Shown here one piece after another: positions 23,606-39,474 of a stretch of DNA of 39,474 nucleotides; the stretch's first letter is position 1; each line of letters begins with the position of its first letter. This DNA is from Anaerofustis stercorihominis (GTDB lineage Bacteria; Bacillota; Clostridia; Eubacteriales; Anaerofustaceae), in NCBI RefSeq assembly GCF_005844425.1, contig NZ_SPHL01000014.1, positions 465 through 39,938 of the forward strand, given 5' to 3'. The position numbers and the translations under genes are program-made. The notes beneath the pieces are model-generated. The model worked only from the letters and a program-made list of their open reading frames with translations, did no database searches and had not been told where the DNA came from.

Positions 23606-24334
23606 TTACACATTAATATGAACAGCATTACCCATATTAGCTGTTCCATAGTAACTATATGCTGCCCCCAAAGAATATGCTTTTGATTTTATTTTTGCCT
23701 TATCAATACCAGAAATATAAATATCCGCTGCCTTACCTTCCATATGTTTTGAAGTTGAAGAAGAACCGCTTACTTCTGCATTGTGTTTTTTACATCTAAG
23801 CCCTGATGTAATTGTTATAGGCTTACCAAAATATTCTCTTAATTCTTCTAAAATATCAATAAGCTTTGAACTCATCTCAGCGGGGTATCCATTACAATAC
23901 TTACCCCCGCACTGACATTTAAACTCTGATTTTTTAAAATACTTAACCTTATCCCAATTCACTTTTGAAGATGAAGAACTTGAAGAAGATGTATTCTTCA
24001 AAGCCTTAATAGTATTACTTCCTGCAATACCGTCCTGAGATAAACCTTTCTTCTTTTGAAATGACTTAATTGCCGAAACGGTCGCATTTCCAATTATTCC
24101 ATCTACTGTAAGTTTTGCTCTATTTTTATTAAGTAAAGTTTGTAAATTCTTTATGTCTGAAATTAATGCCGAATCTGTCTTACTTCCATAAATTCCGTCT
24201 TGTGTCAGCCCTTTAAACTTTTGATAACTCTTTACTGCAGAAGTCGTTTTACTTCCGACTTTTCCGTCAACACTTCCGGTATAAAATCCATAATAGTATT
24301 TTAAATTAGATTGATAATTTTTTATGCTTAACAC
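23606..24334 (-). CDS. Phage endolysin, PG-binding and M15 peptidase domains
   Basis: This is a peptidoglycan hydrolase of the phage lysis module. The 242 residues hold two PG_binding_1 repeats (about 5-52 and 60-112; DGKVGSKTTSAVKSYQ, DGIIGNATVSAIKSFQ), a Ser linker (115-123) and a C-terminal M15-type zinc peptidase. Zinc-site residues are H197 and D204 in SKHMEGKAADIYI, plus H239 in AVHINV. Translation starts at GTG overlapping the upstream stop (TAGTG), with GGAGGG before it. A structured element begins within 4 bases of the stop. Confidence 0.92.
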   Translation of the reverse strand: MLSIKNYQSNLKYYYGFYTGSVDGKVGSKTTSAVKSYQKFKGLTQDGIYGSKTDSALISDIKNLQTLLNKNRAKLTVDGIIGNATVSAIKSFQKKKGLSQDGIAGSNTIKALKNTSSSSSSSSKVNWDKVKYFKKSEFKCQCGGKYCNGYPAEMSSKLIDILEELREYFGKPITITSGLRCKKHNAEVSGSSSTSKHMEGKAADIYISGIDKAKIKSKAYSLGAAYSYYGTANMGNAVHINV

Positions 24335-24612
24335 TAATGTCCCTCCTTATTTTCAAGTTTTATTATTCTTAATTCATGTTCATCAAGTATCTTGTCTTGC
24401 TTTTCGTTATGATCCCAAAGTCTTTTTCTCTTCATTGCCATTTCTTCTCTACTTTCTTTAAATTCATTTTTTAAATCTTTTAAAACATCATTTAAGTGAT
24501 TTAAAGAAGTTTCTATTTTTGTAACCGCTCCTGCAAATCTGCTTATATTGATTATCACGGTTATAATCAGTCCTATAAGAGCAATAATTATTGTTATTTG
24601 TCCCTCTGTCAT
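24334..24612 (-). CDS. Membrane-anchored coiled-coil lysis-module protein
   Basis: The 92-residue protein has one N-terminal transmembrane helix (about 5-24) followed by a long charged coiled coil. This plan is shared by XhlA-like and similar small proteins found beside phage endolysins. The stop overlaps the endolysin start by one base, so the two are cotranslated. It could be a holin partner or a spanin-like factor; neither is proven. Confidence 0.7.
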   Translation of the reverse strand: MTEGQITIIIALIGLIITVIINISRFAGAVTKIETSLNHLNDVLKDLKNEFKESREEMAMKRKRLWDHNEKQDKILDEHELRIIKLENKEGH

Positions 24613-24662
24613 CTCATAAAATCACTCCTTTATTTTTTATTAAAACCACTAAAAAAAATTTC

Positions 24663-24812
24663 TCTAAGGGGTTTCACCCCTTATACCCCACCAAATATTT
24701 GCTCGCCCAAATATTTGGATAAAAGGGCGCCACTGGGCGTGGAGCCGTAAACGCACTCGGATTTCATGAAAAATCTACCCGATTTTTCTATAAACGAGTG
24801 CTACCGCCCCCC
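24663..24812 (-). repeat. Structured repeat element, copy E6
   Basis: Arm 1: GCACTCG (24753-24759) pairs with CGAGTGC (24795-24801), and GAAAAATC with GATTTTTC, around TACCC, which is GGGTA on the element strand. Arm 2: CCAAATATTTG (24691-24701) pairs with CAAATATTTGG (24708-24718) around CTCGCC. It is head-to-head with E7. Its end lies about 50 bases upstream of the coiled-coil protein start. Confidence 0.85.
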
Positions 24813-24859
24813 CTAACTTATTATTAACTAAAGCAGGATTTTATCACACTCTCATTAAG

Positions 24860-25049
24860 TTGGGGCGTGGGTAGTGGTCGTTTCAAAAATCTCGGGTAGA
24901 GATTATTAGAAAATCCGACCACGTTATAAGCCTTCACGGCGTTTGAGTGAAAGCCTTTTTCCCATATTTTTGGGCTTCGGCAAAAATATGGTCGGGTTGT
25001 TAAGGGTGGAAAACCCTTAAATATGGGTTGTTAAGGGAGAATCCCTTAA
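24860..25049 (+). repeat. Structured repeat element, copy E7
   Basis: Arm 1: GTGGTCG (24874-24880) pairs with CGACCAC (24916-24922), and AAAAATCTC with GAGATTATT (one mismatch), around GGGTA. Arm 2: CCATATTTTTG (24962-24972) pairs with CAAAAATATGG (24981-24991) around GGCTTCGG. Two short end hairpins follow, the last (TTAAGGGA/TCCCTTAA) containing the stop codon of the next gene. Confidence 0.85.
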
Positions 25050-25498
25050 AGCGTTACCTCCTCCCAACCAGCAGGATAACCACTCGGTTCCCAAACATTA
25101 TTATCAACTTTTGATTTATAAACTTTTCCGTTTGAAGCAATACAACACTCATCAATCATATACATACCACTTTGCCCCATAGGTGCAACATATGGTTTTG
25201 CTTTAAGAGGATTTTTTGTGTGGCATAAGCTCCACTGTGCCCTTAAATTTTCGGGGTGATCTTTGTAAACTGTGCTGTCATAAGGTTGTAATAACTGCCA
25301 TACTTGTCCGTTATCTTTTACTACCTGCCCCTTTGTCCAGTTTAAATACTGATGTAATTCGGGGTTAAAATCGGGAATATCATCTTCCCTGTCAATTATC
25401 GCTGTTCCATCAAGCTCGGGAGCTTTTTCTTGGAATAAAGTTGCAGAGTTTAGTCCAACTTCTCTCATTTTATTTAACACATATTCCTTAGACTCCAT
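25046..25498 (-). CDS. Phage protein with CBM5/12-like C-terminus
   Basis: The 150-residue protein has two aromatic-rich segments. The first is LNWTKGQVVKDNGQVWQLLQPYDS, and the second is GKVYKSKVDNNVWEPSGYPAGWEEV, which resembles a carbohydrate-binding module 5/12 (W-x-P...YPAGW). It lies among tail genes and overlaps the previous gene by 11 bases. It may help bind cell-wall sugar. The stop codon lies inside the final hairpin of element E7. Confidence 0.65.
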   Translation of the reverse strand: MESKEYVLNKMREVGLNSATLFQEKAPELDGTAIIDREDDIPDFNPELHQYLNWTKGQVVKDNGQVWQLLQPYDSTVYKDHPENLRAQWSLCHTKNPLKAKPYVAPMGQSGMYMIDECCIASNGKVYKSKVDNNVWEPSGYPAGWEEVTL

Positions 25499-25769
25499 AG
25501 CTGTTTACCCCCTCTCTTATTGCTTTTGCCAGCTCATCATAAGTTACATAATCGTTTCCGCTTGGCTCCGGCTCAGGCTTATTTTGTTCCTCTTCCCACT
25601 GCTTTTTCTTTTCTTCGTCAAGTGTTAAAATTCCGTTTTCATACTTATAAAGAAAACATGGTAAATCATTAAAATCTTCAACACTTAAATCTACTTCTAT
25701 ACTGTTTTCAACGTCTCCGACAGTTGCAAAAGCAACAATATATTTATTTTCATCTAAACTTATTTTCAT
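25488..25769 (-). CDS. Small phage tail-region protein
   Basis: The 93 residues form a likely beta-rich N-terminal half (MKISLDENKYIVAFATVGDVE), a charged linker (EEKKKQWEEEQNKPEPEPSG) and a short helical end. It starts directly after the fibre gene stop (TAAATG) and overlaps the next gene, so it is cotranslated. Similar small proteins follow fibre genes in Firmicutes phages, but no function can be given. Confidence 0.6.
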   Translation of the reverse strand: MKISLDENKYIVAFATVGDVENSIEVDLSVEDFNDLPCFLYKYENGILTLDEEKKKQWEEEQNKPEPEPSGNDYVTYDELAKAIREGVNSYGV

Positions 25770-26858
25770 TTAACGTACCCCCCATATTTCTCTAACGTAA
25801 TATTCTGTTCCACCGCCAATAGATTGTTCTGTTCTAATAATATTATTATGAATTGGAATATCTGTATTAAGTTGAGTATCTGATTGTTTAGTAAATCTTC
25901 CTGTATATATCGTAACTGCGTTTGCGTTATATGTTGTTTTTGGAACCGAGTCGTAACACAATACACTTTGTGTCGACATTTGGTTTTGTTCTAAAACTGG
26001 ATATATACCAGCACCGAAAGGATCTCCCGAAGTAGCAGAACTTATGTTAAATACTAAATATCTATAATTATTCATACTTTCATTTAATGTAATAACACCT
26101 GTTTTTACTGCTCCTTCAAATAGTAAAGTTCTTGTAATTTTTTTTAGCTCTGTGATATTATTTTGAATATTTAAAACTTCTTCTTTTACACTTGTAATAG
26201 TATCATTGATATTTTTCCCTTGTGCAGCACTTAATGCTTTATCTATTTCCGTACTTGTAAGATTATTAATAATTTCTGTATTATTAGCTCCATTTTCAAT
26301 TCCATTTAATTTAATTTTATCAACAGAACTCATAAGCCCGTTTGTTTCTGTTGTCACAGTTTCATAAGTCGTATCGATAAACACTGCATCAGGTGGAACT
26401 GCTGTTTCTACTGTTAAATTATTTACTTTATCAGCATTATTAGCATTCTCTGCAATATCAACAACACCGTCACCATCTGTATCATATACACTTTTTAGCA
26501 TATCACCACTTCCTGCAGTAACAAGATGTTCATCAATATAGTTTTGTAACTGACCTTCAATTTGTATTAAGTTTTCTTCAAGGTCGCTTTGTTCAACTTT
26601 ATCATTAAACTTTTCTACAACGGTTTTATCAAGTGTTTCAAGATTATCAAGTTTTGCTATGTAATCATCATCAACAAGACTTTTCCCTAATTCTTTGTCA
26701 ACTTTTAAATCAAGACTTGCATTTACATCTTCAAATCTATTATCAAGATGTTCGTCTACTATTTCTTCAAGATGAGTATAATCAAAACTTCCCGTATCTC
26801 CTTTATCGCCTTTTTCTCCCTTTAATACGGGAGTATCAACAATTAATTCAATTGCCAT
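25770..26858 (-). CDS. Phage tail fibre or appendage protein
   Basis: The 362-residue protein starts with a collagen-like GEKGDKGDTG (14-23). A long coiled-coil-prone region follows, then a calcium-loop-like DTDGDGVVD (126-134) and a repeat-like middle (TTETNGLMSSVDKIKLNGIENGANN), typical of tail fibres. A compact beta-rich C-terminal domain (about 240-362) probably contacts the host. AAAGGAG precedes the ATG. It is the likely receptor-binding component of the virion. Confidence 0.78.
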   Translation of the reverse strand: MAIELIVDTPVLKGEKGDKGDTGSFDYTHLEEIVDEHLDNRFEDVNASLDLKVDKELGKSLVDDDYIAKLDNLETLDKTVVEKFNDKVEQSDLEENLIQIEGQLQNYIDEHLVTAGSGDMLKSVYDTDGDGVVDIAENANNADKVNNLTVETAVPPDAVFIDTTYETVTTETNGLMSSVDKIKLNGIENGANNTEIINNLTSTEIDKALSAAQGKNINDTITSVKEEVLNIQNNITELKKITRTLLFEGAVKTGVITLNESMNNYRYLVFNISSATSGDPFGAGIYPVLEQNQMSTQSVLCYDSVPKTTYNANAVTIYTGRFTKQSDTQLNTDIPIHNNIIRTEQSIGGGTEYYVREIWGVR

Positions 26859-26871
26859 TTTTTTCTCCTTT

Positions 26872-27201
26872 CTAAATGTTATAAGTATTTTTGTTTACAA
26901 CTTCGCCTATTTCTAAATTTCCTATATCCGTTGAATAACTATCTCCTGTTTTATAAATAAACTTCACATCATATTCCACATCATCGCCTTCTCTAAATCT
27001 TGTCATGTCTTCCTGAGAAAAAGGAACGAGAAAACCTCGCTCCTTTTCAAAATAACTTACTTCACCCGGATATTCTTTTATTAACTGTTTTACACCTCTT
27101 CCAAAAGAAAAAAGCACCTTAGATATAATGCTTAAATCTAAAATGCTCTCTTCACTTACTTTAAAAAATAAATATCCGCTGTTTGAATATTTTATCTGCA
27201 T
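26872..27201 (-). CDS. Small phage structural-region protein
   Basis: The 109 residues are mostly beta-strand-like (MQIKYSNSGYLFFKVSEESILDLS, DDVEYDVKFIYKTGDSYSTD), with AGGAGG upstream. It sits in the late operon between the 190-residue and fibre genes. A minor tail or appendage protein is likely; the family is not recognised. Confidence 0.6.
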   Translation of the reverse strand: MQIKYSNSGYLFFKVSEESILDLSIISKVLFSFGRGVKQLIKEYPGEVSYFEKERGFLVPFSQEDMTRFREGDDVEYDVKFIYKTGDSYSTDIGNLEIGEVVNKNTYNI

Positions 27202-27213
27202 AATTCCTCCTTA

Positions 27214-27786
27214 TTATGCTTGGGATTTTCTGAATTGAAATTCTTCTTTGTTTAAATCCAAATTTCCTTTTCCTAAATACCAATCCTTTAACCCTGAAGC
27301 AATACTTAGTTTTTTACTAAGCAGAGTATCTAAAGCTTTGTTTCTTGTATTCATTGTGTTATATGCAAGTTCTGCAAGTTTAGAGTTTTTGGTGTTGTAG
27401 GCTTGTGCAATTTGATTGTCAAAATTCATTTTTGCCTGTTCTGCCGTTGTTCTTGCCTGTGATATTCTGTTTTGTGCGGTTGTAAAGTTTGCACTTTTAC
27501 TGCTTTCGGAAAAACCGCTTCCGCCAAGACCGGCGCTTGCCTGTTTTTCTGCATTGTATCCATAGGGATTAATGCTTTTTAAGTAATCAGCATTTGCAGC
27601 TCTTGCATCACGGAATGCATCTTTGTCTGCTTGTACTTTCTTTTGCTGATATTCTTTTACTTGTTGATTAGTATCATTCGTTATGTTTGTTTTTGCCGAA
27701 TTATAATAATTATTTACAGCATCATTAGTATTTTTATAATACTTATTCGCATACGAACTTAAACCACTATATGGATTGCTTGCCAT
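27214..27786 (-). CDS. Helical phage virion protein, possible ejection protein
   Basis: The 190-residue protein is rich in Ala, Asn, Gln, Lys and Tyr, with long coiled-coil-prone stretches (DTNQQVKEYQQKKVQADKDAF, NRISQARTTAEQAKMNF). A glycine-rich break (SAGLGGSGFSESSKSA) lies near residue 85. Short helical proteins downstream of the tail hub in podoviruses are often internal or ejection proteins, which would fit, but this is inference from composition and position. AGGAGG precedes the ATG. Confidence 0.55.
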   Translation of the reverse strand: MASNPYSGLSSYANKYYKNTNDAVNNYYNSAKTNITNDTNQQVKEYQQKKVQADKDAFRDARAANADYLKSINPYGYNAEKQASAGLGGSGFSESSKSANFTTAQNRISQARTTAEQAKMNFDNQIAQAYNTKNSKLAELAYNTMNTRNKALDTLLSKKLSIASGLKDWYLGKGNLDLNKEEFQFRKSQA

Positions 27787-27805
27787 AATTTACCTCCTTT
27801 TTATA

Positions 27806-28636
27806 TTAACTTTTTACTATACTGCTTGATGAAGTTTTTAAATACGAACTCTTAACTTTGTATATGCTTGAAGGTTTTATATATACCCCTTTTACCTTTG
27901 ATATATTAGAAGAGCTTACTTTTATATATACTTTAGGTCCCCCATTAAAAGTAAGAGTTCCGCTTTTAGATAAAGAATTACTATTACCAAGAAGTGTAGA
28001 ACCGCTGTAAGTTTTTAAATAACAAGTAAATGTTATAGTCTTATCCTCTCCTAAAATATCCTCTAACTTAGTTAGTTCACTGCTTGTAAAAGATACGGTA
28101 TTCCCGCTTTTATAATTAGTTACGGTTTTTGAAAAAGTCTTACATTTTATAACTAAAGTATCATTAAAAGCTGAATTATATTTTGTATAACTTGCCTTTA
28201 TTCCCTTATATTCATTTACTATACTTAAAGAGTTTAACTTTGATATTCTCTTTATTGTAGGAAGTGTAAAGTTTTTTGAACTTATTGTAGCTGTTCCAAT
28301 TGCAACACCACTATAATGTTTAGCACTTACACTAAAATCTCCTGCACCTGATGAACTATGCTTTATGGTAAAATCAGCCTGTGTTAATAAACACGGATTT
28401 TTATAAGTATCAAAATTAGTTTTAGAATTTGTTTTCTTTACTCCGTCTACTGTTATATAGCTTATATGATCGTAAAAGTTCCAGTGTCTGTAACTGTCTT
28501 TACCTCTAAGCCATAATTCACAGTGTATTACTGTTTTATTAGCTTCTTTATCTTGACTTTTTACTTCCCATTCCAAAGATATATAAACATCATCGTTGTT
28601 TGAATATTTTCCCGTTACTTTTCCGCTGCTTGCCAT
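27806..28636 (-). CDS. Phage minor structural protein, DUF859-like
   Basis: The 276-residue protein opens with MASSGKVTGKYSNNDDVYISLEWEVKSQDKEANKT, resembling the start of DUF859 minor structural proteins of Firmicutes phages. It continues with beta-rich segments of Ig-like spacing. The C-terminus is a Ser/Lys/Val repeat-like tail (SSNISKVKGVYIKPSSIYKVKSSYLK). AGAGGTGAG precedes the ATG. It is probably part of a virion appendage; assignment is from pattern only. Confidence 0.6.
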   Translation of the reverse strand: MASSGKVTGKYSNNDDVYISLEWEVKSQDKEANKTVIHCELWLRGKDSYRHWNFYDHISYITVDGVKKTNSKTNFDTYKNPCLLTQADFTIKHSSSGAGDFSVSAKHYSGVAIGTATISSKNFTLPTIKRISKLNSLSIVNEYKGIKASYTKYNSAFNDTLVIKCKTFSKTVTNYKSGNTVSFTSSELTKLEDILGEDKTITFTCYLKTYSGSTLLGNSNSLSKSGTLTFNGGPKVYIKVSSSNISKVKGVYIKPSSIYKVKSSYLKTSSSSIVKS

Positions 28637-28645
28637 ATCTCACCT

Positions 28646-29032
28646 CTAATACACAAATACTATTGAGCCAATGGGAAGATTAGCTCCATAATTTGAAGTT
28701 GTGGGAACTGTTTTTGAAAATACTATTTTAGGTGATGTATTAACTGCTTCCGATGTACTTTCACCTACATATATTTTAGCAATAGTATTATCCACCCTAT
28801 TTGTTATACTCTCCATATCGGTTTTTATCTTTTCTATGTTCGTTGTGTTCGTGTCAATATTTTCTATAATTTCATCATTTACTTTAGGAAGCAAAACCGA
28901 GTTTAAATACTCTTTTATGTCTACACCGGCTTTATCAAAAGTCTGTCTCAATTCTTCACCTGAAATCATCGGTGTATCTCCAAGAGGCTCTATATTTCTT
29001 ACATCTTCATCAAATCCAATCAGTTTATCCAT
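28646..29032 (-). CDS. Small phage structural-region protein
   Basis: About 128 residues. The N-terminal half is charged (MDKLIGFDEDVRNIEPLG), a coiled-coil-like middle follows (ENIDTNTTNIEKIKTDMESI), and a short beta C-terminus ends GANLPIGSIVFVY. The ATG at 29032 follows AGGTGAATGGT; a TTG one codon upstream is an alternative. Position directly after the large tail protein suggests a tail or fibre-attachment role. Confidence 0.6.
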   Translation of the reverse strand: MDKLIGFDEDVRNIEPLGDTPMISGEELRQTFDKAGVDIKEYLNSVLLPKVNDEIIENIDTNTTNIEKIKTDMESITNRVDNTIAKIYVGESTSEAVNTSPKIVFSKTVPTTSNYGANLPIGSIVFVY

Positions 29033-29043
29033 CAACCATTCAC

Positions 29044-31134
29044 CTACCTTTTAATATAGTTTCCTTTGTAACCTTCCAGTGTGAAAGAGAAAAAGCCGAA
29101 AGGTCTCGATTCTTTTTTGTCAATTGTTTCGCCTTTTAGTTTTATTTGAAGTTCGTTAAATTTCTTTTGTTTCGTTTTTATTACACCATAGTTATTATCC
29201 TGATCTATTAAAAAACTTAATGTCCTAAAATCCAAATCTATAAATGAAAAACCGGCATTTTTATATGTTGTTATATACTTATATTCTTTGCTTTTGTTGG
29301 TTCTTATGTATATTCCAACACTGGAATTTCCCATTACTTTAAACTTTGCTATTCCACCTCTTTTGGAAGTTGTCTTTAAATGGTTTATATCTGAAAAATT
29401 ATCGGATTTTAATAAAATATAGTTTTCCATATTTTCTTCATTATCCTTATACAAGGTTTCATCAAATACGCATATATGCCCTCCGTCTGTTGCAAAATAA
29501 AGTTTATTGTCAAAAGATTTTAGATATATACCCTTATATTCATTTCTTTGTTCATCAAATACTCTAAGTCCTTCAAAATAAAACCATTCATACTCATAAC
29601 CTTTATTTACTTCAAAAGTCTTTCTGCTATCTGCAAGATACATATTTCCGTTTATAAGAATACATAAATACCCTTTGTATATATCCATAGATGCATCAAG
29701 ATATTTATCTTCATTTGTCATTTTAGGATTAACAAGGCTGGACCTTTCGCATACAAAGTCCGAAGCATAAATATCGCTGTTTAAGTCGGAATATTTAAGC
29801 CCATACATTCCTTCTTTCGTTAAAAAACATACATCATCTTTAAAGTTTATACTGCATCCAAAACTTCCAAAACTGCTTTTACCCTGCTTTACGGGATAAG
29901 TTTTATAGTATTTTGTTTCCGATTTACCTTGAATATTTGTTATTGTAATCTGCTCAGTGTCTGGCTTATGATAAAATAAATTATTGCCGCCTTCTTTTGA
30001 GTCCTTAAATACCCAAAGAACATTACCCGCAACCGTAATGGAAGTTATATCTTCATTATCACTTCCATCCTGATAATAATTAAGGTCAGAGATGTATTCA
30101 GGGTCGTTTAATTCGCTGTAAAAAAGACCATTTTTATATGTTTTACTACCGCTGAAAAATACTCTATTATCAAAAACCGCATTAATTTTACAATTATTTA
30201 TTCTGTCAGCGTACCCATCAACATCTTTATAAAACATTATCACTACATTATCTTGACCTAACGTATCAGCCATTGGAGGGGCTACGTTAAAAGTTATTGT
30301 TCCTTTTTTTATGTCAATTCCATTTTCTGCTAATTTAAACGTATCGGTCTTTGTTGTTACTTCGCCGGTCTCGGAATTCTTAACGTCATATGTAAGACTG
30401 GTTCCGTTTTTTAAGTCAATATAAGTGTCATTTATCCATGCTTTAACATAATTTATGTCGTTATTTTTAAATTCCGTTGTATCAAGAACATAAACCTTTG
30501 TTTTATTATCTCCGCTAAAAGAATTTTTTCTAAAACCCGTTAGAACATTTACGCCTTGATAACTTTCTCCCCCTCCGTCCGGAAGTCTTGAAATTGAAGT
30601 TGTAGGAATGAAAGGAATATCAAAACTACTTTCAGAATTTTCACTGTCAATTTTAAGAACCTGTTCGTTTATCCTTTCTTTATTACCTACTTCAATAAGG
30701 TTTTCTCCGTCAAATCTGTAATAAATTAAACCGTCATTTATGTATAATTTTTCGTTATACATAAAACTCATTGACTTACATTCGTTCATTTTATCCGAAA
30801 GTAAAACAGTGTTTTCTAAATTTATTTGACTAGGAAATTCTTTATATAAATATAAAAATTTTCCTATATGCACTAATGCAAGATTATCCGAAAGAGTGGT
30901 ATAAATATGTATACCGTAGATTCTCTTGTTTAACTCGTTATCTATTAAAGAAGAAAAATCAGCGATTAACTTATAACCTTCTCTTGTAACCACACACTGA
31001 GAATCATCAAGATAATCTTTCCACATATTGACCATCATTGGAGAGCGGTTATCACTAACATTTCTTGCCTCTCTTGAAAAATCCACGCCTTTTATGTTCT
31101 TATAGGTTCTTTTTATGGTTTCTGATTTAGCCAT
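29044..31134 (-). CDS. Large podoviral tail protein, gp10/nozzle-like
   Basis: The 696-residue protein starts with YKNIKGVDFSREARNVSDNRSPMMVNMWKD and VVTREGYKLI. This opening resembles packaged-DNA stabilisation or tail-nozzle proteins of podoviruses, which begin 'GVDxS...' and '...TRxGY'. Repeated beta strands throughout suggest a propeller. No tape measure or tail tube gene is near, which supports a short tail. GGAGG lies inside the end of the upstream gene, whose stop overlaps the ATG (TAATG). Exact equivalence to P22 gp10 or T7 gp12 is uncertain. Confidence 0.65.
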   Translation of the reverse strand: MAKSETIKRTYKNIKGVDFSREARNVSDNRSPMMVNMWKDYLDDSQCVVTREGYKLIADFSSLIDNELNKRIYGIHIYTTLSDNLALVHIGKFLYLYKEFPSQINLENTVLLSDKMNECKSMSFMYNEKLYINDGLIYYRFDGENLIEVGNKERINEQVLKIDSENSESSFDIPFIPTTSISRLPDGGGESYQGVNVLTGFRKNSFSGDNKTKVYVLDTTEFKNNDINYVKAWINDTYIDLKNGTSLTYDVKNSETGEVTTKTDTFKLAENGIDIKKGTITFNVAPPMADTLGQDNVVIMFYKDVDGYADRINNCKINAVFDNRVFFSGSKTYKNGLFYSELNDPEYISDLNYYQDGSDNEDITSITVAGNVLWVFKDSKEGGNNLFYHKPDTEQITITNIQGKSETKYYKTYPVKQGKSSFGSFGCSINFKDDVCFLTKEGMYGLKYSDLNSDIYASDFVCERSSLVNPKMTNEDKYLDASMDIYKGYLCILINGNMYLADSRKTFEVNKGYEYEWFYFEGLRVFDEQRNEYKGIYLKSFDNKLYFATDGGHICVFDETLYKDNEENMENYILLKSDNFSDINHLKTTSKRGGIAKFKVMGNSSVGIYIRTNKSKEYKYITTYKNAGFSFIDLDFRTLSFLIDQDNNYGVIKTKQKKFNELQIKLKGETIDKKESRPFGFFSFTLEGYKGNYIKR

Positions 31135-31745
31135 TATAAACCTCCGCCGTAGATTTTTACGGGTCTTACTATTCCCATTACACCGTTTTTCGTTATATCA
31201 AGTGCCGAAATTATCTTTGCTGCCTTTTGGTCAAAGGCTGTATAATCTGCTCCGACATCTGTTTTTAAAACATCGCTTGCAACATGATAACAAAGAACAA
31301 TAACCGAATTTACATCAAGGTCAAGTTCCGTTTCGTCAAGTTTATCATTTGGTATATCGCTTAAATCTTCACAGTAAGGCTTATACTGTGCTTCAATAAG
31401 TCCTTCGTAATTATTTTTAATATATAACTTTTTATTTAAGAAATAATAATCTATATCTTTATAATCTGACTTTATTACCCTTATTCCAAGAAACTTGGCA
31501 CAAAGTGAACCAAGAGAATAAGGCTTGTATTCATCTCTTGACATTTCATTATCAATTTTAACTTCGATTTTCTTTGCCTTTATATTTTCGCTTTGATTAA
31601 ATAACATTTGATAATGAATGTTTATAAGAGGAATAAGTCTTTTGTTTATATCTTCATCATCGGAAGTATACAAATCATTTGTAGAGTACTCTTCAATTAT
31701 CGCAAGAATATATCTTTTTATCTCTTTTATACTTCTTATACTCAT
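31134..31745 (-). CDS. Head-tail adaptor candidate
   Basis: The 203-residue protein is helical at the start (SIKEIKRYILAIIEEYS), beta-rich in the middle and ends GIVRPVKIYGGGL. It lies between head genes and the large tail protein, where podoviruses carry the adaptor or tail-tubular A protein. AAAGGAGG precedes the ATG. Family membership rests on position and general shape, so it is tentative. Element E8 begins 17 bases upstream of the start. Confidence 0.55.
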   Translation of the reverse strand: MSIRSIKEIKRYILAIIEEYSTNDLYTSDDEDINKRLIPLINIHYQMLFNQSENIKAKKIEVKIDNEMSRDEYKPYSLGSLCAKFLGIRVIKSDYKDIDYYFLNKKLYIKNNYEGLIEAQYKPYCEDLSDIPNDKLDETELDLDVNSVIVLCYHVASDVLKTDVGADYTAFDQKAAKIISALDITKNGVMGIVRPVKIYGGGL

Positions 31746-31762
31746 TATTTACCTCCTTTTTC

Positions 31763-31917
31763 TCTAAGGGGCTTTGCCCCTTAACAACCCCACGACTTTT
31801 TTACACGCCTAAAAAAGTCGAATAAAAGGGCGCCACTCGCCGTGGGGGCTTATAACGTGGTCGGATTTTCTAAAAATCTCTGCCCGAGATTTTTGAAACG
31901 ACCACTACCGCCACCCT
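31763..31917 (-). repeat. Structured repeat element, copy E8
   Basis: Arm 1: GTGGTCG (31857-31863) pairs with CGACCAC (31899-31905), and AAAAATCTC with GAGATTTTT, around TGCCC (GGGCA on the element strand, one change from GGGTA). Arm 2: CGACTTTTTTA (31793-31803) pairs with TAAAAAAGTCG (31810-31820) around CACGCC. The end hairpin is AAGGGGC/GCCCCTT. It is head-to-head with E9. Confidence 0.85.
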
Positions 31918-31987
31918 ACCTTATTATTGGTCAGGGTAATATTTAACCATATTCCCATTAATTTTGGTTTGGGGTTATAGTTAAATG

Positions 31988-32178
31988 GGAGGGGTAGCAT
32001 TCCAGCTCTAAAAATACGGGTAGTATTTTTAGTAAGCTTTGGAATGCGTTTAAGCCCTCACGGCGTTTGAGTGAAAGCCTTTTTTCCATATTTTTGGGCT
32101 TCGGCAAAAATATGGTCGGGTTGTTAAGGGTTGAAAACCCTTAAGTTTGGGGGTTTTAAGGGGGGGGGACTCCCCTTA
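31988..32178 (+). repeat. Structured repeat element, copy E9
   Basis: This copy has unique arm-1 sequence: GCATTCCA (31997-32004) pairs with TGGAATGC (32040-32047), GCT with AGC, and CTAAAAATAC (32008-32017) with GTATTTTTAG (32023-32032), around GGGTA. Arm 2: CCATATTTTTG (32086-32096) pairs with CAAAAATATGG (32105-32115) around GGCTTCGG. A second G-rich end hairpin contains the next gene's stop codon. Confidence 0.85.
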
Positions 32179-32526
32179 AGGTAACTCTATTACCCCAATA
32201 GAAACAGTTCCTGTTACGGTAACTTTAACTTTTCCTTTGTTTACTTTTACGTCTTTGTATTTACCGCTTTCGATTACAAGAGTTCTCATTTCTCCGTTTG
32301 GAATATCAAACTCAAATTCTGCCGCTTCTACTCCTTGAATACCATTTCCACTGTGTACTTTTACTTTTGCACCTTCTGATGAAGCCGAAAAAATCATAAG
32401 TGTTTTATCGTCGCATCCGTCAAAATCAATTAACGCTCCGTCTGTTGTGTCAATTGCTGTTAACTCAGGATATTCTCCAGGAGTGTTTCTTTTTATTTTT
32501 ACTCTTTCAATATTTGTTACTGACAT
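32176..32526 (-). CDS. Small head protein, decoration candidate
   Basis: The 116-residue protein is nearly all beta strand, with a C-terminal half of Ig-like look (KVKVTVTGTVSIGVIELP). It lies directly downstream of the coat gene, with GGGAG before the ATG. Small beta proteins in this position are commonly capsid decoration proteins. The stop codon lies inside the final hairpin of element E9. Confidence 0.6.
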   Translation of the reverse strand: MSVTNIERVKIKRNTPGEYPELTAIDTTDGALIDFDGCDDKTLMIFSASSEGAKVKVHSGNGIQGVEAAEFEFDIPNGEMRTLVIESGKYKDVKVNKGKVKVTVTGTVSIGVIELP

Positions 32527-32542
32527 ATTTTATTCTCCCTTC

Positions 32543-33361
32543 TTACTCTGCTTCGTGAGCTTTTATTGTATATAATTCTTTTGGTCTTACTGTTTTTGTT
32601 CCATAAACAAGTAACCCTTTTACAGCGTCCATAAATCTCTTTTCAGGTCTGAATGGCTCAACATTATCAATTTGTTTTCCCGCTGCAATGGCTCTGTTTG
32701 TTCTTATCATTAAGTAATCGTCTTTTCCGTCGTTGTATAAGTTGTTACTCATTTTTACGTAAGCATTTTTGTATTTACCAAGAATACCTTCTTCGATTAG
32801 TTTGTCGTTTCTTGTTTTTAATTCAATAATCTTGTTTTCAAATACGTCGTAAGCCCATGGAGTTAGCTCAATTACTACTCTTTGTGTCATAGGAACTCCG
32901 TTATCTCTTAACCATACAAGACCTTTGTCTACTAATTTTTTCATATCATCTTCTGTTGATACAGCTGTTGACGCTGAAAATTTACCTGCATTTTTTGCTT
33001 CTAAGGCAATGTCATATTCATATGCTTCAGTTAGCCCTGCTGTTGCTTCGGCTCTAAGTGATGACATTAAGCCCTTTCTTGATTGTGCTTTGTCAATATC
33101 ATCAACTCCAAAGTTAAAATATTTTGCCTTGTCGATGTCTAGATAAATACTTGTATCTTTTACATCTTCAGGATCGTGAATGTCGCTTCCGTCATAATCT
33201 CCGATTGTTGGTCTTGCAACTCCAAGAATTTTTACCTTTCCTGCTTGTTTAATGTCTCCGTCAAAATCATGACAACAGTCCTTGTCCAGTACTGCCATTT
33301 TTTCCAAATCTCTTAGTATGTTTGCACTCCATACTGTCGCTTTAAAATTGTTATAACTCAT
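32543..33361 (-). CDS. Phage major coat protein candidate
   Basis: The 272-residue protein resembles small HK97-fold coat proteins. The N-terminal helix (FKATVWSANILRDLEKMAVL) is followed by a beta-rich stretch with GDI and GVARPTIGDYDG. A helical spine lies around residues 100-155 (KGLMSSLRAEATAGLTEAYEYDIALEA), and a C-terminal segment reads VEPFRPEKRFMDAVKGLLVYGTKTVRPKELY. P22-like or related coats share this order. GAGAGG precedes the ATG. A strong terminator-like hairpin lies only 22 bases upstream of the start. Confidence 0.78.
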   Translation of the reverse strand: MSYNNFKATVWSANILRDLEKMAVLDKDCCHDFDGDIKQAGKVKILGVARPTIGDYDGSDIHDPEDVKDTSIYLDIDKAKYFNFGVDDIDKAQSRKGLMSSLRAEATAGLTEAYEYDIALEAKNAGKFSASTAVSTEDDMKKLVDKGLVWLRDNGVPMTQRVVIELTPWAYDVFENKIIELKTRNDKLIEEGILGKYKNAYVKMSNNLYNDGKDDYLMIRTNRAIAAGKQIDNVEPFRPEKRFMDAVKGLLVYGTKTVRPKELYTIKAHEAE

Positions 33362-33382
33362 ATTTTCCTCTCTTTCTTTTAT

Positions 33383-33410
33383 AAAAAAAAGAAGTAACTT
33401 ATGTTACTTC
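33383..33410 (-). terminator. Terminator just upstream of the coat gene
   Basis: On the minus strand GAAGTAAC-ATAA-GTTACTTC is followed by eight T residues, the textbook intrinsic form. It ends only 22 bases before the coat ATG, so it could attenuate or shield the coat transcript. Confidence 0.85.
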
Positions 33411-33639
33411 CCTCATTTTTTCGATATTTTGATAAATATTTTCCCTTTCCCTCCCATTACTTTTCTTTATCCTGTATTTATCAAATATATCTTTTGATAA
33501 TAAATTTATGTTTTTAAATATGCTTTTCTTAAACTTAACACCTCATACCTTCATCCCACGCCTAACCTCGTTTATAGAAAAGTAACTTTAATATAATAAA
33601 ATTTACCCTCAACTAAAAACCATGAAACACAAAACCTGC

Positions 33640-33955
33640 ATTTCATCCCCACACCAACCCCCCCTATATAAATCCCATTCAAAATGAAACTTTCCATTTC
33701 ATCACCATGTCCCACTCCCTACATAAAACCTATTCAAAGTGAAACTCCCCATTTCATCACCATGTCCAACACACTCACCTAAAAATTATTCAAAGTATAA
33801 ATTTGATTTTATTACATTGTCCCACCCTTTAACATAAACATCATTTAACGTAAAACTTAAATTTCACCATGATGTCCCACACCCCTAACATAAAACCCAT
33901 TTAAAGTGAAACGTCCCATTTCATCGCCATGTTCCACTCCCTACCATAAAACCAA
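33640..33955. repeat. Degenerate ~55-bp tandem repeats, array 2
   Basis: About six units are anchored by ATGTCCCAC-like cores at 33707, 33762, 33816, 33872 and 33929 (spacing 54-57), with a weaker one near 33651. The unit continues as ACATAAAACC, ATTCAAAGTGAAAC and ATTTCATCACC; GTGAAA and TTTCATCAC are partly complementary. It is related to array 1 and leads into element E10. The stretch 33420-33640 is A/T- and C-rich with no gene seen. Confidence 0.75.
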
Positions 33956-33963
33956 TAAGCAGA

Positions 33964-34115
33964 TGGGGTAGCGGTAGCATCGGTTCATGAGAAAATCGGG
34001 TATATTTTCCATGAAATCCCGATGCGTTATAAGGCTCCACGCCTAGTGGCGCCCTTTTATTCGACTTTTTTAGGCGAGTAAAAAAGTCGTGGGGTTTAAG
34101 GGGTGAAACCCCTTA
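33964..34115 (+). repeat. Structured repeat element, copy E10
   Basis: Arm 1: GCATCGG (33977-33983) pairs with CCGATGC (34019-34025). The inner stem GAAAATC/TATTTTC has a mismatch at the loop-closing pair; the loop is GGGTA. Arm 2: CGACTTTTTTA (34062-34072) pairs with TAAAAAAGTCG (34079-34089) around GGCGAG. The AAGGGG/CCCCTT end hairpin lies 4 bases before the stop of the acidic protein gene. Confidence 0.85.
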
Positions 34116-34119
34116 TCCA

Positions 34120-34872
34120 CTACCATCTTTCAATAGACCTATTCACAATATCAAGTAACTTCGGATTTCTCTTAAAGTCCTCAACCGTAAAATCGTCCAC
34201 TTCATCGGCAGTGTAATAATCCTTAATACCTCCGGGCTTTTTATTATCTTTAAGACTTCCCGCAGGAGAATAAGTGTTTTGCTCCTTATTAAGCACACGA
34301 CTTTCATAAACATTGTAGACATCCATTAATGGAACATCATCTCTGAAATATTTGGCAAAGTTTATAAAATCATCACTTCTAAGTACGCTTGGATCTTTAC
34401 CAATATTTCTAAGTTCATTTTCATTTGTTCTAAGGGATAACTCACTTGAAAGCCTGTTTAAAAGAACTTCCGATGTTGTATCCAAATTATTTGAATGTAG
34501 AAGTTCATTTAATACTTCGTTCATATCTTCATCTCCTAAAGATATGATTTCATCAGCATAATAATTTCCAAGCTTTGTCTGGCTTAAAGTGTCGTTGTCA
34601 GAATGTGTGATCTCTTCATCCATGAAGTTTTCCATATCAGAAAACTCATCAGCTTTTTGTTCATAATCTTCTTCGTAATCTTCATTAGGCTCTTCATCAA
34701 AATAAGTATCTTCCTCTTGTTCCCGCTCGTCGTCATAATATTCTTTTTCGGTACTTAAGCCCTCATCATACTCAGATGAATCGTAACCATATGAATCGTC
34801 ATAACTATCATAGTAATCTTCTTGATTTAAATCATCTTGTGAAAATGATTGTCCTTCGTAATTTTCTTCCAT
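34120..34872 (-). CDS. Acidic phage protein, scaffold candidate
   Basis: About 250 residues from the ATG preceded by AGGAGG; an upstream in-frame ATG adds 19 residues but has no ribosome site. The first hundred residues are extremely rich in Asp, Glu and Tyr (YDSSEYDEG, NEDYEEDYEQ). The C-terminal half is helical and mixed-charge, ending DIVNRSIERW. Acidic helical proteins encoded just before the coat gene are often scaffolds, so that is the best guess. Between it and the terminase there is no portal gene, only repeat elements. Confidence 0.55.
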   Translation of the reverse strand: MEENYEGQSFSQDDLNQEDYYDSYDDSYGYDSSEYDEGLSTEKEYYDDEREQEEDTYFDEEPNEDYEEDYEQKADEFSDMENFMDEEITHSDNDTLSQTKLGNYYADEIISLGDEDMNEVLNELLHSNNLDTTSEVLLNRLSSELSLRTNENELRNIGKDPSVLRSDDFINFAKYFRDDVPLMDVYNVYESRVLNKEQNTYSPAGSLKDNKKPGGIKDYYTADEVDDFTVEDFKRNPKLLDIVNRSIERW

Positions 34873-34986
34873 ATCATTTCCTCCTTTTCTTTTGTCCGGA
34901 CTTTTACCTTTAACGTAGGTAAGGCGCATAATTTATAGTCTTATGAAGACTTGACACTTTAAGCATTCCCACCCAAAACCACCCAT

Positions 34987-35763: not shown

Positions 35764-35792
35764 ATTCGATTAAATTAACTTTTGTAAGCCAA

Positions 35793-35880
35793 ATAGGCGG
35801 GGTAGCGGTAGCATCGGTTCATGAGAAAATCGGGTAGATTTTCCATGAAATCCCGATGCGTTAAAGCCTCCACGCATAGT
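35793..35880 (+). repeat. Structured repeat element, copy E14, truncated
   Basis: Arm 1: GCATCGG (35811-35817) pairs with CCGATGC (35853-35859) around GGGTA (35832-35836). The linker CCACGCATAGTG remains but arm 2 is lost. The third TTAAATTAACTTTTGTAA flank lies just before it. Confidence 0.75.
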
Positions 35881-35942
35881 GACATACTTTTTTATTCAGG
35901 TACATTAACTAAAATTAAGTATTATTAAACTAATAAATAAAT

Positions 35943-36095
35943 GGGATGGCGGTAGTGGTCGTTTCAAAAATCTCGGGTAGAGATTTTTAGAAAATCCGAC
36001 CACGTTATAAGCCCTCACGGCGCTTGAGTGAAAGCATTTTGTCCAGTATTTTTTGCTTTGGAAAAATACTGGTCGCTCTTTAGAGCGAAACCCTA
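35943..36095 (+). repeat. Structured repeat element, copy E15
   Basis: Arm 1: GTGGTCG (35955-35961) pairs with CGACCAC (35997-36003), and AAAAATCTC with GAGATTTTT perfectly, around GGGTA (35975-35979). Arm 2: CCAGTATTTTT (36043-36053) pairs with AAAAATACTGG (36062-36072) around TGCTTTGG. A GCTC/GAGC hairpin and CCCTAAA follow, and the terminase stop codon is in the last bases. Confidence 0.85.
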
Positions 36096-37661
36096 AATAA
36101 TTTTGATTTCCCCACCAAAATCACCGCCGCTTTTACCGGGCATTTCGGCTTTAAAGTGGAAAGTTCTCGGTTTAACTATTTTCTTTTTAACCATTTCCTG
36201 TTGTTCTCTTATGTGATAAGTAATAGCAAGCCCCATAACCAAATCATCATGAGCCCCAGCTGCCGCCTCAGGTCTTCCCTTTTCGTTTCTTACAAAACTT
36301 AACATCTCTTCTAAAGTAGCCTTATCAACTATTTTTTCTCCCTCTTCACGCACTATCTTTATTAGATTTGCTATTATTATCGGTCTTGTTATCCTTGTTG
36401 TTACAAAACCAAAGGAACTTATCATTCTTCCGGTATATGTATCTTCCCTTTTCCTTACATAAAGTTTAGGATAATCAAGCCTTTCAAGTTCCTTGTTTGG
36501 ATAGGTTGAAAAGTTTGTTTCAATTCCTATAAGCGCATCATTATAATACTTTCCAAGACAGTAAACCTGCCTTGCATATAAATCTTCATCAAACTTGTTT
36601 TTTAAAACAGCAACTTGATTTCCGGTAATATTATCTATTACGTGTGCCGTAAAATTATCGCTGCCTTCTCCTGCCGTATCTCCTCCAAGAACATAAAAAG
36701 AGCTTTTATCCACATCTTCGTAAATGTTTATAAAGCCCTTTTCATCTTCTATAAATTCTATGTTTTTTATTTCCTTTCCGTCATAATCATATTTAAAATA
36801 TCCTGTCTTTATGGGTTTTATATTCTTCTTTAACTGCCTTGTTACTGTGGATACATCAAACACACTATCACCCAAAACACCCCACATTCCAAGACAGTAC
36901 ACATTGTAATAGTATATATCCGTATCCTTGTAGCTTTCGAGTTCCTTTTTGTATTCATCATCTATAAAATGATTGTCTTTATAGGTAGTATGAAGATAGG
37001 TTGCTCTTCCGGTATCAATAAGGGAAGTCTTAATCCAGTGGTTTATGTCTATGGGATTTAAACTCATTACTATCTGCTTCTTTGTTTTACCACCCCTTAA
37101 ACGAACGTTAAGCTGTTTGTAGTCGTCTTCCTCTGCCTCACTGGCTTCTTCTATCCATACATCCGTTAATTCACCACTTTCAAAGGTTGTTGATTTTATC
37201 TTTTCTACATCATCAAGTCCTTTAAATATAATCTGGTTTAAATTCACCTTACAGGTAATGGTAAAATCGCTTTTGTTTATCAAAAATAAATCCCTAAGGT
37301 TCCACTTGTTTATTATCTGTTTAAAAAGTGCAAAGGTGGAAGTTCTGTTTGTATTTCCCGTCTTTCTTACAACAAGTATATTGCAAAGATTGTTTTTTAG
37401 TATCTTATAAATATATCTTTGGACTACAAAAACGCTCTTTCCGCTCCCCGCTCCTCCATAAAATATAAGTAACCTGTCATCATTATCCAAATATGGTATA
37501 TAAACCTCGTTAAATACCTTTTTAGATATTTCAATACTGTAACACTCATCATTTACTTTTTCTTTAAATGGACCTTCCATATTTTCAAGTTCACTGTTTC
37601 TGATTTCCTCTTTTAATTTTTCTATACTGTCCTTTCTTTTTTTATCTTTCAAAATAAACAT
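36093..37661 (-). CDS. Phage terminase large subunit
   Basis: This is the ATP-driven DNA packaging motor with nuclease. From the ATG at 37661 it has 522 residues. The Walker A motif GGAGSGKS is at 69-76, Walker B (VWIEEASE) near 168-175, and nuclease acidic residues at D328 (LGGDTAGEG), E381 (IGIETNF) and D472/D473 (GAHDDLVMG). The frame opens at 37697, but that stretch lies within a terminator hairpin. AGGAGG sits very close to the ATG, so the in-frame TTG nine bases later is another possible start. No small terminase is visible upstream, and the portal gene expected next is absent. Confidence 0.93.
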   Translation of the reverse strand: MFILKDKKRKDSIEKLKEEIRNSELENMEGPFKEKVNDECYSIEISKKVFNEVYIPYLDNDDRLLIFYGGAGSGKSVFVVQRYIYKILKNNLCNILVVRKTGNTNRTSTFALFKQIINKWNLRDLFLINKSDFTITCKVNLNQIIFKGLDDVEKIKSTTFESGELTDVWIEEASEAEEDDYKQLNVRLRGGKTKKQIVMSLNPIDINHWIKTSLIDTGRATYLHTTYKDNHFIDDEYKKELESYKDTDIYYYNVYCLGMWGVLGDSVFDVSTVTRQLKKNIKPIKTGYFKYDYDGKEIKNIEFIEDEKGFINIYEDVDKSSFYVLGGDTAGEGSDNFTAHVIDNITGNQVAVLKNKFDEDLYARQVYCLGKYYNDALIGIETNFSTYPNKELERLDYPKLYVRKREDTYTGRMISSFGFVTTRITRPIIIANLIKIVREEGEKIVDKATLEEMLSFVRNEKGRPEAAAGAHDDLVMGLAITYHIREQQEMVKKKIVKPRTFHFKAEMPGKSGGDFGGEIKII

Positions 37662-37686
37662 CTCCTCCTTTATTATTAATTTATAT

Positions 37687-37712
37687 AAAAAAGACACCCC
37701 TCGGTGTCTTTT
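37687..37712 (-). terminator. Terminator with GACACC/GGTGTC stem
   Basis: The stem GACACC/GGTGTC is extended by A and T runs, just downstream of the minus-strand gene ending at 37724. A near-identical copy lies at 39350-39376. Confidence 0.9.
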
Positions 37713-37723
37713 CTATTCTTAAT

Positions 37724-38434
37724 CTATTCTATCCCCATTAATTCCAAAGTTTCTTCAAGATCAACCCCCTCAGGCAGCTTCGTCCTGTCCATTTCTTCAA
37801 CAAGTCCGCCAAGCATTGCGTTTAAGAAATCAAGGTTATCTTTTTGTTCTGGTAGTTTGCTAATAACAACACTATAGTCACCTCTGCCAATATCAACATC
37901 ATCCTGCTTTTTGTATACATACATTACAGTTTTTTCTTTATTATCTATTATTTTGCTACCTTCATGTTCAAGTTGCTTTGCAAAGTATTTTTGTATTTCT
38001 TCTTTACTTATGTTTTTATTTTGTTCTATATACTTATTTGTTGCCATAACCGCATTTTTATAAGCTTCAGCATAATTATAAGAAGTAACCTTTATTTTTA
38101 CTTTAAAATATCTATTTTTTTGCTCTAATATACTTCCTTGATTTATTAATTCAAAACATTCTTCTTCCTCAATAATATTATATTCAATGTTTTTATTTAC
38201 TTTTTTTATTACATATACCTCTTTTGGATACATCAACATAATCATATTTTTATATTCAACTACATCTTCATCTTTTGAAGTTAAATACTCATAGCACTTA
38301 TTTTTTAAATCATTTGTAGGAATTTTATCATACATATAGAAAAAAAATAATAATAAGATTAATATAATAAAAAAACATATATTAAAAATTATTGTTTTTA
38401 TTTTATTAAAATTACGTTGACTTTTATTATACAT
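37724..38434 (-). CDS. Membrane-anchored protein, EEMDRTKLPEGVDLEE family
   Basis: The 236-residue protein has one N-terminal membrane helix (about 14-34), an external domain with a SYNYAEAYKNAVMATNKYIEQN segment, and a C-terminus reading NAMLGGLVEEMDRTKLPEGVDLEE. Two neighbours share the last motif, with identical DNA over 50 bases, although the rest of the proteins is diverged. It lies directly upstream of the terminase gene. Not recognised; a surface or lysogenic-conversion role is possible. Confidence 0.65.
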   Translation of the reverse strand: MYNKSQRNFNKIKTIIFNICFFIILILLLFFFYMYDKIPTNDLKNKCYEYLTSKDEDVVEYKNMIMLMYPKEVYVIKKVNKNIEYNIIEEEECFELINQGSILEQKNRYFKVKIKVTSYNYAEAYKNAVMATNKYIEQNKNISKEEIQKYFAKQLEHEGSKIIDNKEKTVMYVYKKQDDVDIGRGDYSVVISKLPEQKDNLDFLNAMLGGLVEEMDRTKLPEGVDLEETLELMGIE

Positions 38435-38478
38435 AACATATTCCTTTCTTTATCATTATATATTTTATTATAATATTA

Positions 38479-39180
38479 TCATTCTTTATGTATAATTATC
38501 TCTTCAAGATCAACCCCCTCAGGCAGCTTCGTCCTGTCCATTTCTTCAACTAGACCGCCAAGCATTGCGTTTACTAAGTCCATATTATTCTTTTGATTAG
38601 GAAGAGGGTAAATAATATAAGTTTTTATTTCCATTTTTGAACCGCCAATCTCATGTTCCTTACTACATCTATATACAATATTTGTAGTCATCTGGTTGTT
38701 TTGTATAATTAGCTGTCCTTCTTTTTCTAACTGTTCATAAAAATATTTTTGTATTGCTTCACGGTTTAAAGAATTATTTTTATTTATAAATTCATTTGTT
38801 TTTAAAACTGCATTCTTATATGCGTTTGCATAATTATAGCTTTTTACATTTATACTAACTTTTACATAAAATGACATATAAGATATATTCATAGAATTAC
38901 TATCAATAACTTCTCTATCTGTAATTGTATATGTAATATTATTCTTAATGAACTTTTCTATATCCTCTTCATTTGGATACATTATCTTTAATATTTTTAA
39001 ATAATTATCATTAACATTATTACATTCTTCTAAATAGATACTGCTTTTTTTATTCAAATCTTTTATAAGATAATCTTCTTCGCTTGGATTTAAAATAAAA
39101 AATAATACTATGACAACAATAAAAAGAAGTATAATTTTTATTGCTTTTTTTAATTTTTTATTGCTTTTGTAACTCATCAA
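38479..39180 (-). CDS. Membrane-anchored protein, second family member
   Basis: The 233-residue protein has the same plan as its neighbour at 37724. It has a lysine-rich start, one membrane helix (about 13-31), SYNYANAYKNAVLKTNEFINKN in the external part, and the shared end NAMLGGLVEEMDRTKLPEGVDLEE. The final few residues (IIIHKE) differ from the other two copies. A paralogue by duplication, with the C-terminal DNA kept nearly constant. Confidence 0.65.
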   Translation of the reverse strand: MMSYKSNKKLKKAIKIILLFIVVIVLFFILNPSEEDYLIKDLNKKSSIYLEECNNVNDNYLKILKIMYPNEEDIEKFIKNNITYTITDREVIDSNSMNISYMSFYVKVSINVKSYNYANAYKNAVLKTNEFINKNNSLNREAIQKYFYEQLEKEGQLIIQNNQMTTNIVYRCSKEHEIGGSKMEIKTYIIYPLPNQKNNMDLVNAMLGGLVEEMDRTKLPEGVDLEEIIIHKE

Positions 39181-39349
39181 TTTTCCCTTTAAATTTATAA
39201 ATTAATTTTAATAAATATTTTATATATCAATTTAACCTACTTTATATCTAAATATAACACAATATAATAATATTTTATATATTCAAATTATATAATATAA
39301 TATTTATTAGTTACACAATAAAAATTCTTAATATTCATTTTCACAAACA

Positions 39350-39376
39350 AAAAAAGACACCCCTCGGTGTCTTTTC
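39350..39376 (-). terminator. Terminator, duplicate of the one at 37687
   Basis: The stem GACACC (39356-39361)/GGTGTC (39366-39371) with T/A runs lies 11 bases past the stop of the partial gene at the window edge. The rest of 39181-39349 is very A/T-rich with no gene seen. Confidence 0.9.
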
Positions 39377-39386
39377 TATTCTTAAT

Positions 39387-39474
39387 CTATTCTATCCCCA
39401 TTATTTCCATTGTTTCTTCAAGATCAACCCCCTCAGGCAGCTTCGTCCTGTCCATTTCTTCAACAAGTCCTCCA
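39387..39474 (-). CDS. Third EEMDRTKLPEGVDLEE family member, C-terminal part
   Basis: Only the last 28 codons are in the window. They encode GGLVEEMDRTKLPEGVDLEE followed by TMEIMGIE, the same end as the gene at 37724 (TLELMGIE). The stop codon, following bases and terminator are also shared with that copy. The rest lies beyond the window. Confidence 0.75.
   Translation of the reverse strand, partial: GGLVEEMDRTKLPEGVDLEETMEIMGIE

Follow-up and report, generated by a model that had tools for sequence, protein, structure and literature searches.

Three tandem genes of Anaerofustis stercorihominis, g1, g2, and g3, encode paralogous proteins, each with a globular domain behind a single hydrophobic helix at the N-terminus, and the genes lie in a rearranged podovirus-like prophage. 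The C-terminal peptide of these proteins is kept by selection at the protein level, and there is good support for recent homogenization of the DNA that encodes it, within the cluster on contig C5, by gene conversion or unequal crossing-over. Taken as a whole, an explanation that joins tandem prophage membrane paralogues, conversion of their tails, and a role in immunity or exclusion is, on balance, probable. The setting of the array is of more interest than the conserved block itself. The window, which is the whole stretch of DNA that was analyzed (39,474 nucleotides), covers positions 465-39938 of C5 in the genome assembly G000 (85 contigs, 2.03 Mb), and its relevant features are collected in Table 1.

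Table 1. Features of the window around the repeated 3′ block (positions are those of the window).
Feature	Position	Strand	Basis
Prophage late region	23606..34929	(-)	Major head protein PHROG 267, Peptidase_M15_3
Large terminase subunit, directly downstream of g1	36093..37697	(-)	Pfam Terminase_3 E 2.3e-48, PHROG 3717
Intrinsic-terminator-like hairpin after g1 (GACACC...GGTGTC and T run)	37680..37723	(-)	
g1, single-TM protein of 236 aa with a globular domain; the large terminase gene comes next	37724..38434	(-)	ORF, paralogues, AF2 model
Shared 50-bp block, copy 1 (EEMDRTKLPEGVDLEE)	37752..37801	(-)	Sequence comparison
g2, 233-aa paralogue, 44% identical to g1	38479..39180	(-)	
Shared 50-bp block, copy 2	38501..38550	(-)	Sequence comparison
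C-terminal codons, stop, and terminator of the third paralogue g3, cut by the window edge	39350..39474	(-)	
Shared 50-bp block, copy 3, inside 60 bp repeated on either side of the gap	39415..39464	(-)	

An earlier note on this DNA described three adjacent genes that share 50 identical bases of C-terminal coding DNA, with strongly diverged upstream regions and, in two copies, a common 3′ end and terminator. The identity holds at all three places: the exact run is 50 nt between g1 and g2, 59 nt between g1 and the third copy (with the 50 bp of copy 3 lying within it), and 50 nt between g2 and the third copy. The common 3′ end is equally real, with 97% identity over 125 bases between 37687-37811 and 39350-39474, stop codon and terminator included. 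The bodies upstream are indeed strongly diverged, with amino acid identities of 39% (g1/g2), 57% (g1/g3), and 34% (g2/g3) and pS of 0.50-0.66. The three block copies are thus as described, but the third belongs to a C-terminal fragment at the window edge and not to a complete adjacent gene.

That edge is an assembly gap of 95 N (L009:4440-4534), and 60 bp are identical on its two sides. Examination of the genes past the edge located the body of g3 beyond the gap (L009:4537-5337, with the matched part at C5:40033-40710), its end repeating the same 60 bp. Thus, the third copy is most simply the tail of g3, and the most economical reading of the sequence would make the window tail and the gene beyond the gap one gene whose repeated end is counted twice. 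Extra copies hidden inside the gap are possible. The locus shows that an assembly can break at short repeated 3′ blocks, right at the site of such an array.

The genome holds five short genes of this family, g1, g2, and g3 on C5 and c63a and c63b on contig C63, as well as longer relatives of 445 aa on contig C27 and 611 aa on C5. Two further pieces, possibly parts of one gene, are a 5′ piece of 94 aa, where C27 ends, and a 3′ piece of 176 aa, where C63 begins. Within the cluster, g2 sits 44 bp upstream of g1, and no terminator-like hairpin was seen in between. The five short proteins align over their length, are 43-61% identical to g1, and each carry an N-terminal hydrophobic stretch. Because they align end to end, they do not represent a shared tag on unrelated domains, and the variable N-terminal domains suggested in the earlier note are not supported. 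The 611-aa form is also homologous to the short proteins (hhalign 95%, E 2e-8). Of the short genes, the four that are available in full have open frames. Across the ten pairs of bodies from the five short genes, amino acid identity is 30-60%, pN is 0.25-0.47, and pS is 0.50-0.68; pN is below pS in every pair, the mark of purifying selection on the bodies.

Tail amino acid identity is 73-100% among the five short paralogues, all of which keep the peptide VEEMD[RK]TKLPEGVDLE with its single variable position. Compared along the gene, synonymous divergence within the C5 cluster drops from the body values to a tail pS of 0.07-0.26, versus 0.44-0.93 in the seven pairs that include C63 genes. Since the C63 paralogues keep the peptide with other codons, the peptide is under selection, and the identity of the C5 DNA is a separate and recent matter. 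At the protein level, the even divergence along the gene that the earlier note had named as evidence against its reading did not occur among the paralogues.

Codon choice in the block is unusual. CTG, ACG, GGG, and AGG, which it uses, make up 2%, 10%, 14%, and 15% of the codons for their amino acids in 21 other window genes. Given the codons of g1, a second gene would pick the same 15 codons, an ATG among them, with a chance of 1.1e-8 under the usage of these 21 genes and 1.6e-8 under that of 11 phage genes; with random codons in both genes, the match probability is 9e-5 and 5e-5, respectively. A permutation test on shared codons, which is cruder and ignores codon rarity, is borderline for the three pairs within the C5 cluster (p = 0.051, 0.058, and 0.015). 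The longest run of shared codons coincides with the 50-bp block in all three of these pairs and in 0 of the 7 pairs with C63 genes. A feature absent from the earlier note is the raised third-position GC of the tails, 0.38-0.65 versus 0.15-0.19 in the bodies of each of the five short genes; the tail is perhaps of foreign origin.

The last 42 nt of g1 are exactly those of c63b though the codons before them differ, so the 3′ ends are mosaics across contigs; such ends were seen among g1, g3, and c63b of this one strain. In a comparison that covered the family members other than the 445-aa gene, near-copies of the g1 terminator hairpin stand after g3, c63a, c63b, the gene of 611 aa, and the C63 piece of 176 aa. 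A genome search with the block gave 29 matches at E ≤ 10, and those beyond the paralogues are terminator-like or short. Within the C5 cluster, gene conversion or unequal crossing-over probably acted through the 50-60 bp 3′ block and the terminator. Both processes offered in the earlier note gain support here: gene conversion from rare codons common to the C5 cluster only and from mosaic 3′ ends across contigs, and selection for the C-terminal peptide from its presence in all five proteins despite the high tail pS of the C63 genes.

An AF2 model of g1 from five sequences (mean pLDDT 84) consists of a helix at residues 2-37, judged hydrophobic by eye, and an alpha/beta domain. The elements run in the order N-terminal helix, three helices, two strands, two helices, two strands, and three short helices, and a model without the TM helix keeps this order (pLDDT 84). 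The tail is modeled confidently as part of the domain (block means of pLDDT 93-94, residues 201-230). The basic N-terminus points to an N-in/C-out topology. Foldseek searches with the g1 model, two against the PDB and one against BFVD, returned nothing at E ≤ 0.001. An NTF2-like fold was considered after a VIA search gave a best Z of 3.7 and several NTF2-like matches; without the TM helix such matches were few and the best Z was 3.1. This fold is not claimed because Z did not exceed 3.7 and the signal faded once the TM helix was left out.

Family searches were similarly sparse. Pfam gave no family above the cut-off for the five short proteins, the 445- and 611-aa proteins, or the four large proteins encoded next to family members (p580, p768, p724, and p546). 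NCBIfam gave none above its cut-off for g1, g2, the two long proteins, the four large proteins, and the portal, with one sub-threshold match for p768, and PHROGs gave nothing convincing for g1, p724, and p580. PADLOC, applied to g1, g2, the two long, and the four large proteins, produced a single weak match of g1 to PDC-M29B (E 0.003). A sequence search of solved structures with the short family listed only 6m6z (TMH4C4, E 0.09). None of the libraries, the set of which varied by protein, placed a protein with confidence in an immunity, toxin, or exclusion family that is already known. A relation to the window proteins at 19721-20698 and 20787-21938 was looked for and not seen.

In the sets searched, the short family was confirmed only in its own genome. 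It was found nowhere else among 41 genomes and 67 genomes of the order, sets that overlap and that may leave out genomes very near the source genome. No relative was confirmed among 73 pattern matches in the viral contigs or 74 in the genome contigs, and a search of the sister prophage record described below was negative as well. Across 69 loci (12 from viral contigs, 56 from genome contigs, and the sister locus L044), the best outside match is L078:6163-6399, with E 0.0088. For the large proteins, 117 pattern matches in the viral contigs yielded none that was confirmed. Literature on Anaerofustis and prophages, judged by title, contained no description of the array. A weak match to the long membrane protein at G000:C19:12974-13375 (E 0.04) has three internal stops and is possibly a decayed copy.

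The prophage itself is best described against a sister prophage, the IMG/VR record IMGVR_UViG_641736193_000002 (L038), which is also present in the same-genus genome G002. The large terminase is 78% identical to its sister counterpart. The late region encodes a 269-aa acidic protein that is scaffold-like by position only, the major capsid protein, proteins of 203 and 696 aa, further genes, and an M15 peptidase endolysin; 12 of the 14 proteins compared from this region have sister matches at 31-79% identity, in the same order. By tblastn at E ≤ 1e-3, 18 of 23 G000 prophage or neighboring proteins match the sister, and those without a match are p580, TM445, p150, hol92, and a PDDEXK_4 protein. 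The PDDEXK_4 nuclease-like gene (L021:1887-3188) and a 777-aa ORF on the opposite strand (L021:3438-5771) stand beside the small terminase gene on C27.

Gene order is where the two prophages part. The sister runs from small terminase through large terminase, portal, and scaffold position to capsid, with three ORFs between large terminase and portal, and in several related viral contigs the portal adjoins the large terminase. In G000, the small terminase and the portal are on C27, and the large terminase is on C5 after the array, with repeats filling the space behind it. The genome has one full-length large terminase and one portal match. A second terminase-like match at G000:C55:43318-43974 is 33% identical over residues 70-281 (E 7e-24), and this partial match means that another phage element may be present. 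Gene content and repeated contig ends suggest the order C27-C63-C5; over 121 bp, the end of C63 matches the beginning of p768 at 98% identity. The array was not found in the sister prophage, which has one giant LPD38 polyvalent protein and the usual gene order. With its disturbed order, a giant gene that was not found, and repeats in its gaps, the G000 prophage may be defective as a whole.

These repeats lie between prophage genes at 31746-32175, 33362-34119, and 34930-36092 of the window, at L020:2705-3163, 5123-6149, and 6402-7232, and at L021:104-1370. Their units are 61-99% alike in blastn pieces, occur in both orientations, and in part form a 133-bp tandem. They also occupy the slot after the large terminase where related phages carry the portal, and one unit matches contigs C8 and C47 as well.

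The membrane-protein genes are paired with large genes. The ORFs p580, p768, p724, and p546 (546-768 aa) are mutually related, with pairwise blastp E values of 1e-120 to 8e-4 in a six-sequence set, and a member of the membrane family comes next on the same strand after each of the four. For p768, this member is the 94-aa piece at the contig end. The gene for p768 is the next ORF after the portal on C27, from which 459 bp of repeats separate it; the portal was recognized by tblastn with annotated portal proteins, and the other three large genes are placed elsewhere. The earlier note spoke of cassette-like effectors or surface variants. The cassette-like part fits this neighborhood of large gene and membrane gene; an effector or surface-variant function would be conjectural. 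No toxin domain was recognized in the large proteins, and p546 (L009:7227-9089) may be decaying because 73 in-frame codons continue past its stop.

When the four large proteins are combined in a profile, it matches residues 367-551 of the 2782-aa LPD38 protein of the sister (hhalign 93%, E 3e-7, 150 columns); a profile of three sequences gave 83.5%. As controls, none of 80 shuffles exceeded 0.7%, and none of three unrelated phage proteins exceeded 0.3%. Searches with single sequences show this link weakly or miss it. By blastp in the six-sequence set, p724 matches the giant protein with E 3e-5 in one direction and 0.23 in the other; the pair was listed neither by phmmer with the giant protein at a threshold of E 1e-5 nor by hmmsearch with three of the large proteins. 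LPD38 has 0 matches in G000 and is present in the sister genome G002, and the genes that flank the giant region in the sister stand 12 bp apart in G000. Besides the two sister loci, 5 of the 69 loci have relatives of the giant protein at E ≤ 1e-5.

Tentatively, each group of membrane proteins might shield the lysogen from the large protein encoded just upstream, as immunity or superinfection exclusion at the membrane. This role is favored because tandem immunity clusters show a similar combination of pairing, diverged bodies, and a 3′ block that recombines, and because of the parallel with SieA of P22. The membrane proteins would act at the membrane against the large phage protein encoded immediately upstream, with variable bodies setting specificity. 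The constant tail would either form a structural end that the domains have in common or bind a common part, and recombination at the tail would reshuffle and duplicate the repertoire. It is conceivable, although rather unlikely, that a recombining array of smaller virion or ejection-type proteins, each with membrane-anchored immunity proteins, replaced a single giant injected polyvalent protein; this would make the array a polymorphic conflict system carried by a phage, its exclusion repertoire diversified by conversion of the constant 3′ block. A functional pairing would connect phage-injected polyvalent or ejection proteins with recombining tandem immunity arrays, and it would suggest that lysogens maintain an evolving set of membrane proteins against proteins injected by related phages.

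The T7SS immunity clusters of Firmicutes, esaG of S. aureus and tipC of S. mitis, are similar tandem paralogues with diverged bodies and conserved DNA blocks, according to excerpts of their description (PMC9484751). In the same excerpts, esaG has 5′ and 3′ blocks of about 55 nt and recombines through them, its conserved 3′ block resembling that of the array; the membrane-bound immunity family tsaI shows little recombination (PMC9484751). Both the T7SS clusters, as excerpted, and the array have homology blocks that extend into the downstream intergenic region; the T7SS clusters have mosaic genes and change copy number by recombination (PMC9484751), and the array has mosaic 3′ ends in its one strain. 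However, the excerpts describe esaG and tipC as genes that counter T7SS toxins (PMC9484751), unlike the array, which lies in the phage packaging region beside large phage-region proteins and whose products have a membrane helix and no family match.

SieA of P22 is, in the portion of the source that was available, a membrane protein that keeps podovirus DNA from entering the cell, and mutations that escape it fall in ejection proteins (PMC10883804). The likeness, drawn from descriptions, lies in a prophage-encoded membrane protein, a podovirus-like setting, and an ejected phage protein as the possible target (PMC10883804, in part). SieA, as described there, is a single gene with a demonstrated block of DNA injection, unlike the array, which has many paralogues and is known from genes alone. 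MuF polymorphic toxins offer another parallel, as partial text of their survey places them in Firmicute prophages with a large gene immediately downstream of the portal, like p768, and then a smaller ORF (PMC5576092). Unlike these toxins, the four large proteins have no MuF domain by Pfam and no recognized toxin domain. The ORFs downstream of MuF toxin genes are typically under 150 aa in that partial text (PMC5576092), whereas the downstream genes here encode a membrane helix and exceed this size where complete. The resemblance to LPD38 polyvalent proteins, known from an excerpted account (PMC5512222), is the profile match with the 2782-aa sister protein, although the large proteins here are far shorter and have no LPD38.

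The main rival to immunity or exclusion holds that the membrane proteins are surface proteins of lysogenic conversion unrelated to their large neighbors and that tandem duplication in a decaying prophage made the array grow and its tails identical as neutral side effects. This is a serious contender, though on the unlikely side. It draws on the rearranged prophage, in which the giant gene was not found, the intergenic repeats, the reading frame that continues after the p546 stop, and the restriction of relatives to G000 in the sets searched. Neutral expansion sits poorly with pN below pS in all ten body pairs, the intact frames of the four complete short genes, and a family member next to every large gene.

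Other readings address the block itself. A targeting or docking tag, serving for example secretion or incorporation into a virion or membrane complex and identical by selection alone, would account for a peptide that varies at one position in five paralogues and is modeled with confidence. It is nevertheless improbable: the corresponding part of the two long paralogues differs, the tail is modeled within the domain and not as a free tag, and selection on the peptide does not force DNA identity because the C63 tails use different codons. An assembly artifact at a repeat could be suspected from the third copy, which adjoins the gap with its 60 identical flanking bp, and from the C63 end that nearly repeats the start of p768; copies 1 and 2, however, stand in gap-free sequence with different flanks, which makes an artifact very improbable as the source of the three-copy identity. 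Scarcely credible is a functional nucleic-acid element, such as a recombination, packaging, or RNA site that codes by chance. The unusual third-position GC of all five tails would suit it, but folds of four tails gave z of 0.1 to -1.0 and no stable fold, Rfam searches of the whole window and, at E ≤ 1, of 31700-39474 were negative, the C63 copies differ at many synonymous sites, and the remaining genome matches are terminator-like or short. The reading of an RNA or DNA site was rejected.

Elsewhere in the window, positions 3539-12520 form a CRISPR type III region in which Csm6 is recognized by Pfam and the ORFs at 6213-12520 resemble other csm genes by eye.
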